Source of the DNA: an uncultured Verrucomicrobiales bacterium
Lineage (GTDB): Bacteria > Verrucomicrobiota > Verrucomicrobiia > Verrucomicrobiales > Akkermansiaceae
DNA: 10,210 nucleotides
Direction: 5' to 3'
Assembly: GCA_937952875.1 (NCBI GenBank)
Contig: CALFDI010000308.1
Location: 1-10,210, forward strand
Made by a program: the position numbers and the translations under genes. The notes below the pieces were generated by a model that made no database searches, was not told where the DNA came from, and saw only the letters and a program-made list of their open reading frames with translations. This document shows positions 8,921-9,334 of the stretch, in pieces (positions within the stretch are counted from its first letter, which is position 1; each line of letters opens with the position of its first letter).

Positions 8921-8953
8921 AAAGCTTCATGCCACAAATGAGCATGAAGCTTT
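8921..8953 (-). terminator. Strong hairpin terminator between bioF and infA
   Basis: A perfect 12-bp stem, AAAGCTTCATGC (8921-8932) paired with GCATGAAGCTTT (8942-8953), encloses a 9-nt loop. Read on the minus strand it ends in a run of six T (8923-8918), a classic intrinsic terminator for infA, whose stop is 21 bp away. On the plus strand it follows bioF by 27 bp, but the tail is not a strong T run, so plus-strand activity is less certain. Confidence 0.82.
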
Positions 8954-8974: not shown

Positions 8975-9271
8975 TTACCCGAGACGGAAAACAATACGCG
9001 CCTTTGTCGTATCATAAGGTGACATTTCCATCTTCACGCGGTCACCGATCACGAGTCTGATAAAGCGCTTTCGCATCTTACCCGAAATATGAGCAAGGAC
9101 TTCATGTCCACTCGGGAGCTCCACTTTAAACATAGTGCCAGCGAGGACAGCAGAAATTGTTCCTTCCACCTCAACAGCCTTGTCAGTGTCTCCCTTACTC
9201 GTGTTACGTAAACGATTGTCACGACGGCGACCTCCACGGCCTCCTCCTCTTCTTCCTCTTGGTCCTGCGAT
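8975..9271 (-). CDS. infA: Translation initiation factor IF-1 with Arg/Gly-rich N-terminal extension; proposed non-AUG start
   Basis: The S1/OB-fold core is unmistakable: EVEGTI...LAGTMFKVEL, HISGKMRKRFIRL, GDRVKMEMSPYD and KARIVFR are IF-1 hallmarks. IF-1 binds the 30S A site and assists IF-2 and IF-3. The only standard start, GTG at 9169, falls inside conserved sequence: the codons before it read DKAVEVEGT, matching the usual EDAIEVEGT, so translation must begin further up. The frame stays open to a TAA at 9290-9292 but has no ATG, GTG or TTG above that GTG. The best candidate is ATC at 9269-9271, six nt after AGGAG; ATT at 9272-9274 is second. This gives 98 residues, against about 72 usually, with a basic extension MAGPRGRRGGGRGGRRRDNR followed by a linker. 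A sequencing error at the start codon is the main alternative. The minimal certain coding part is 8975-9169. The gene has its own promoter and terminator. Confidence 0.85.
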   Translation of the reverse strand: MAGPRGRRGGGRGGRRRDNRLRNTSKGDTDKAVEVEGTISAVLAGTMFKVELPSGHEVLAHISGKMRKRFIRLVIGDRVKMEMSPYDTTKARIVFRLG

Positions 9272-9277
9272 AATATA

Positions 9278-9282
9278 CTCCT
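9278..9282 (-). promoter_or_regulatory. Shine-Dalgarno AGGAG for infA
   Basis: On the minus strand AGGAG lies 6 nt before ATC (9269-9271) and 3 nt before ATT (9272-9274). It decides the proposed infA start, because the 6-nt spacing suits ATC. It is the only strong Shine-Dalgarno seen before a gene in this window; the other visible starts have none or only a weak AGG. Confidence 0.65.
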
Positions 9283-9334
9283 GGTAAATTTATGGTTAGA
9301 GAATCTTTCGATGAAGATGCAATCAACCAGAGGT

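Follow-up and report, generated by a model that had tools for sequence, protein, structure and literature searches.

The infA gene of the window, a stretch of 10,210 nucleotides from an uncultured member of the Akkermansiaceae (Verrucomicrobiales; contig CALFDI010000308.1), is probably translated from the AUC codon at 9271-9269 of the minus strand, and discrimination by the initiation factors IF3 and IF1 against this codon probably limits and adjusts the synthesis of IF1, as for infC. The AUC start itself is well supported by comparison with related genes. The feedback part of this reading, control through the start codon, is what we infer from it; it agrees with what has been published on how IF3 and IF1 act, and with the infC starts in most genomes of the family.

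The infA coding sequence (8975-9271, minus strand) comprises 98 codons and a stop at 8977-8975; its assignment is based on two profile matches and on the conservation of its frame and start. In profile searches, the frame from the ATC to the stop matched PF01176 (E=1.6e-22, 79.3 bits against a cut-off of 30.2) and the infA model TIGR00008 (91.8 bits against a cut-off of 61.15). The protein is thus a bacterial IF1 by OB-fold profiles above their curated cut-offs, and the IF-1 homology claimed in the original prediction was borne out. Read on the minus strand, the frame runs from an upstream in-frame TAA (9292-9290) through ATT TAC CAG GAG TAT ATT ATC (9271-9269) GCA GGA CCA AGA GGA, and further on through GTT GAG GTG (9169-9167) GAA GGA. 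This GTG is the first canonical start-type codon in the frame, and it was rejected as the start. ATG, GTG and TTG are absent from the 40 codons between the TAA and the GTG, which bears out the claim that infA here appears to lack a canonical start codon. Taken alone, such a run carries little weight (chance of about 0.13 under uniform sense codons); it becomes strong evidence because the absence is conserved. In 27 of 58 family genomes (that of the window and 26 others), no ATG, GTG or TTG interrupts the stretch from the upstream stop to the OB fold, versus 0 of 31 genomes elsewhere in the order.

A Shine-Dalgarno-like AGGAG (9282-9278, minus strand) is spaced as had been claimed, 6 nt ahead of the ATC and 3 nt ahead of the ATT at 9274-9272. 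Downstream of the ATC, positions 9268-9170 of the same strand encode an Arg/Gly-rich N-terminal extension together with the opening residues of the OB fold, as indicated by a similar extension in relatives and by the differences at each codon position. This extension varies in length; in Akkermansia, it places about 100 residues ahead of the OB fold. One intrinsic-terminator-like hairpin was found 3' of infA (8921-8953, minus strand; shuffle mean 0.5). The leader region folds worse than its shuffles (z = +2.15), and a stable RNA structure was not found in it; seven loci compared with Rfam gave no match at the gathering score, and a promoter scan found none.

Among named relatives, those that match the window's genome best include Akkermansiaceae. 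The profile search for infA covered 98 genomes, 97 of them with a match, and the start region was read in 58 of 60 Akkermansiaceae genomes and in 31 of 38 genomes of other families in the order. Two genomes were left out of the family counts, G004 (divergent paralog only) and G057 (no match); neither has a usable infA match, and their contigs with the gene are perhaps missing. At the aligned start, the 58 family genomes have ATC (33), ATT (4), ATA (3) or ATG (18). AUC, AUU or AUA (hereafter AUH) therefore stands at the aligned start in 40 of the 58, and the conservation of the codon in relatives, by which the original prediction was to be checked, was indeed observed; neither GUG nor UUG was seen at this position in the 58 genomes. 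The four ATT starts come from genera g4 and g7, the three ATA starts from g9 and g14. The 18 ATG starts belong to six genomes of g6, six of g10, five of g13, and to G001. AUH starts were thus found in 13 of the 16 genera read, mixed with AUG in Akkermansia, and AUG in all read genomes of g6, g10 and g13. Seven further Akkermansia genomes showed three ATC, one ATT (by inspection) and three ATG starts. The prediction had left the choice between AUC and AUU undecided: the AUC at 9271-9269 is the conserved codon at which codon periodicity begins, and the ATT before it is not favoured by the relatives, in which the codon preceding the AUH varies (GTT, ATT, CTT, ACT, CAT and others).

Elsewhere in the phylum, 61 of 63 infA-like loci, second copies included, have an in-frame canonical codon ahead of the OB fold; the phylum-wide set comprised 70 loci read, with L389 and L390 unparsed. 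Four automatic AUH calls (L033, L045, L026 and L065, three of them in Akkermansiaceae) were dropped by hand in favour of ATG starts common to their relatives. All 26 parsed loci of the control gene rplT (of 30 in the order's genomes; L243, L246, L247 and L252 were unparsed) have an ATG start, so the assemblies do not show AUH starts as a general feature. In family f6, an AUC or AUU precedes an Arg/Gly-rich or Arg/Pro-rich extension at L051, L061 and L084, and follows an AAGGAG-like leader at L051 and L061. These three loci also have an ATG at -35 and possibly yield two products from one gene; they were not counted as AUH because an IF1 begun at this ATG would be of ordinary length. At L002:1234-1446 (G000:C86, minus strand), a second, divergent protein of 71 aa with an ATG start resembles IF1. 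It scores 24.2 bits with PF01176, below the cut-off of 30.2, and the gene directly after it, judged by a motif at its start, is a putative selB. Weak second IF1 matches similar to this one occur in many relatives.

Judged by a short list of motifs, 23 of the 40 AUH infA genes of the family, Akkermansia genes included, have a Shine-Dalgarno-like motif and 17 have none. Nine of the latter (L003, L004, L005, L010, L013, L021, L025, L034 and L062) have leaders resembling AACCCATTTTTAAGTTATCGC, with an in-frame TAA one codon before the start in six of the nine. A. muciniphila is counted among organisms with scarce Shine-Dalgarno sequences in PMC10783764.

The infC genes of the family use the same class of start codons. 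Among 48 family genomes searched, 47 had an infC match and 45 starts were read (G017 had no match; L194, L408, L257 and L258 were unparsed). By inspection, 22 start with ATA and 13 with ATC; the remaining ten start with GTG. These ten are all the Akkermansia among the 45 (L176, L397-L403, L406 and L415). In many infC genes, an ATG also lies inside the frame, two codons ahead of the conserved RVNERIR, which makes the reading of the infC start less tight than that of infA. When both genes are considered in the 45 genomes, 19 have AUH starts on both, 16 on infC only (g6, g10 and g13), six on infA only (Akkermansia) and four on neither (Akkermansia G001, G143, G160 and G196). A cursory reading outside the family found AUH-like infC starts in G060, G061, G062, G063, G064, G067, G068 and G069, but no such start close to the expected position in G066, G070 and G073. 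In a tree of IF3, L20 and IF1 from 33 genomes, the ATG genomes of g6, g10 and g13 group with a support of 100; along the backbone of the family, support on several branches is low (31-57), and for this reason no direction of start-codon change is claimed.

The codon would be read by the ordinary initiator tRNA. In the Akkermansia genome G027, one initiator-type tRNA, with a CAU anticodon, was found among 42 of 52 tRNA matches (10 matches of at least 80 nt were left out), and the same 42 include no initiator-type tRNA with a GAU anticodon. A dedicated non-AUG initiator tRNA with an anticodon reading AUC was thus not found among them. The tRNA in question (L320, G027:C1:1452370-1452480) has the anticodon stem CAGG-CTCATAA-CCTG. 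A stem motif of the CAU initiator was found in 51 of 58 genomes, with the window's own incomplete genome among the seven misses, and nearly all of the 51 carry an A-U variant of the stem. The usual initiator stem has three G-C pairs, the first of which is replaced in this variant; the variant could bear on the tolerance of weak start codons. A search with the canonical stem pattern was discarded, as its matches were chance-like and the order mostly carries the A-U variant.

Published data on start-codon discrimination, which come from E. coli-type systems and may not match the Akkermansiaceae, indicate that IF3 discriminates against AUU, AUC and AUA but not against AUG, GUG or UUG, and that IF1 works together with IF3 in initiation fidelity (PMC4611024). 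In vitro, initiation with weak third-position pairs such as AUU with CAU declines as IF3 increases (PMC10158994). The AUC of infA should be a weak start sensitive to IF3 and IF1, because it belongs to the IF3-discriminated class, faces a CAU initiator tRNA and follows an unstructured leader. In the proposed mechanism, the initiator tRNA would pair with the AUC despite a third-position mismatch, and the AGGAG six bases upstream would aid initiation. IF3, helped by IF1, would reject the AUC and make infA initiation inefficient, and initiation would drop further whenever IF3 and IF1 exceed ribosomes. The very factors that set start-codon stringency would in this way both restrict and tune the synthesis of IF1. 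Many genera would have both infA and infC under this control, and the main Akkermansia group infA only, because infC starts at GUG there. Since IF1 helps ribosomes to reject AUC, AUU and AUA, infA may control its own output. For Akkermansia, a switch carried by infA (AUC or AUU) and not, as in other bacteria, by infC (here with GUG, which IF3 does not reject), by which IF1 would repress its own synthesis through stringency, is a tentative proposal that we consider plausible but doubtful. On this proposal, start-codon discrimination would set the amount of IF1 and not that of IF3. Such control of infA appears to be dispensable, because 18 of 58 family genomes use ATG.

The AUC could also make infA weak and not regulated. 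The main competing explanation is a start of constant low efficiency that holds IF1 at a low level, with no feedback from IF3 or IF1; it is unlikely, yet it deserves to be taken seriously. All evidence that locates the start fits it equally well, and three non-canonical starts in S. aureus gave about 10% of the output of AUG in poor medium (PMC13009471). Against a fixed weak start, the non-AUG codons on infA are all AUC, AUU or AUA, the class rejected by IF3, and neither GUG nor UUG appeared among the 58; moreover, infC uses the same class in most parsed family genomes.

The remaining alternatives place the start elsewhere, and they bear on where coding begins. In 34 same-genus pairs, those of 65 with at least 70% amino-acid identity, differences after the AUH fall on the three codon positions as 177/129/542, with 435 synonymous and 222 non-synonymous codons; in the 45 nt upstream, they fall as 242/234/202. 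Ungapped blocks of all 65 pairs gave 202/197/188 (-30 to -15) and 130/108/91 (-15 to 0) upstream of the AUH, compared with 17/44/67 (+3 to +18) and 71/55/152 (+18 to +33) downstream; the pairs are not independent, and all these figures are descriptive counts. Codon periodicity in infA sets in at the AUH codon and is absent upstream. The AUH codon itself varies within genera at its third base only (6 differences). Database proteins agree in part: the IF-1 of Rubritalea marina (P0159, MAGKPK...) starts exactly at the aligned codon, with letters matching L023, in which the DNA is ATC, and that of Akkermansia muciniphila (P0122, MSPNPR...) starts, by protein alignment, at the place of the ATC in L056. 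In the NCBI entries P0009, P0021, P0043 and P0063, compared as proteins only, an N-terminus of the type MA(G/R)... lies at the aligned AUH place.

It is very improbable that an ATG, GTG or TTG farther upstream, differing from genome to genome, reads into infA, whether to give an extended protein or through an indel or frameshift in the window. Such a codon is present in frame upstream of the AUH in 10 of the 40 AUH genes (13 of 40 contain a canonical codon at some other in-frame place ahead of the OB fold), and the annotated starts of the entries P0001, P0003, P0005 and P0024 lie upstream. P0001 is the closest public protein to the IF1 of the window (96% identity); its extra N-terminus aligns to the TTG at 9326-9324, which is out of frame in the window. 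A canonical alternative start must exist in that relative, because the equivalent of the TTG has to be in frame there, and P0001 is the one fact that favours an upstream start in this species. Against this, the position of the upstream codons is not conserved, periodicity does not extend to them, and 11 genomes of six genera have an in-frame stop one codon before the AUH (stop-NNN-AUH, NNN being GTT, ATT or CTT).

An internal canonical start, such as the GTG at 9169, would produce a short IF1 and leave the Arg/Gly-rich stretch untranslated. In 16 of the 40 genes, the canonical codon that follows the AUH most closely is a GTG at -28 or -26 with respect to HISGK, and the entries P0062 and P0086 are short. 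This position is not conserved among relatives, however: 19 of the 40 show no canonical codon downstream of the AUH until the frame is within the OB fold (-23 or later), and in 14 of the 40, from seven genera, no canonical codon of any kind comes earlier than that. The Arg/Gly-rich stretch also has a strong third-position bias, and an internal start is highly unlikely. A sequencing or assembly error at 9269-9271 can practically be dismissed: the source assembly is fragmented and incomplete (2.04 Mb, 385 contigs, 72% complete), but the same codon recurs in independent genomes, including the single-contig, 99-100% complete G027 and G037.

If the proposed control is real, start-codon-based control would extend from IF3 to IF1. 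The family would offer natural replicates for asking what purpose such control serves, with AUH starts on both genes, on infC only, on infA only or on neither. For the much-studied gut bacterium Akkermansia, the AUC start would settle the N-terminus of the essential IF1. The case further illustrates that gene calling restricted to ATG, GTG and TTG can misplace the start of a conserved essential gene or cut the gene short. Among the matches listed from the open-access literature, no paper described an AUC-started bacterial infA.

In sum, the best reading of these sequences is that infA carries the class of start codon, discriminated by IF3 and IF1, that is known from infC. Three features of the infC type appear to be present: infA is an initiation-factor gene, it has an AUH start without an in-frame canonical alternative, and this start is conserved across species. 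Like infC, which starts with AUU, AUA or AUC and is autoregulated by IF3, infA would be an initiation-factor gene with an IF3-discriminated start. It differs from infC in the gene concerned and in its main codon, AUC; IF1 assists IF3 and is not the main discriminator, and the autoregulation of infA is putative. The eukaryotic factor eIF1, a fidelity factor that limits its own synthesis through its start site, resembles the control proposed here; it differs in relying on a poor start context, not on a non-AUG codon, and on other machinery. Conserved weak AUH starts like that of infA are described for S. aureus ccpN (AUA) and cvfC1 (AUU) in PMC13009471; unlike infA, these genes do not encode initiation factors and have extended Shine-Dalgarno sequences, whereas a Shine-Dalgarno-like motif was found in only 23 of 40 infA genes. 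The chloroplast infA with a UUG start, as cited in PMC9845219, is likewise an IF1 gene with a non-AUG start, but, unlike the infA of Akkermansiaceae, it is organellar, and UUG is not discriminated by IF3 (PMC4611024). AUH starts are already known from infC and from a small number of further genes, and a UUG start from chloroplast infA; the infA of Akkermansiaceae would bring the IF3-discriminated class to the bacterial IF1 gene.
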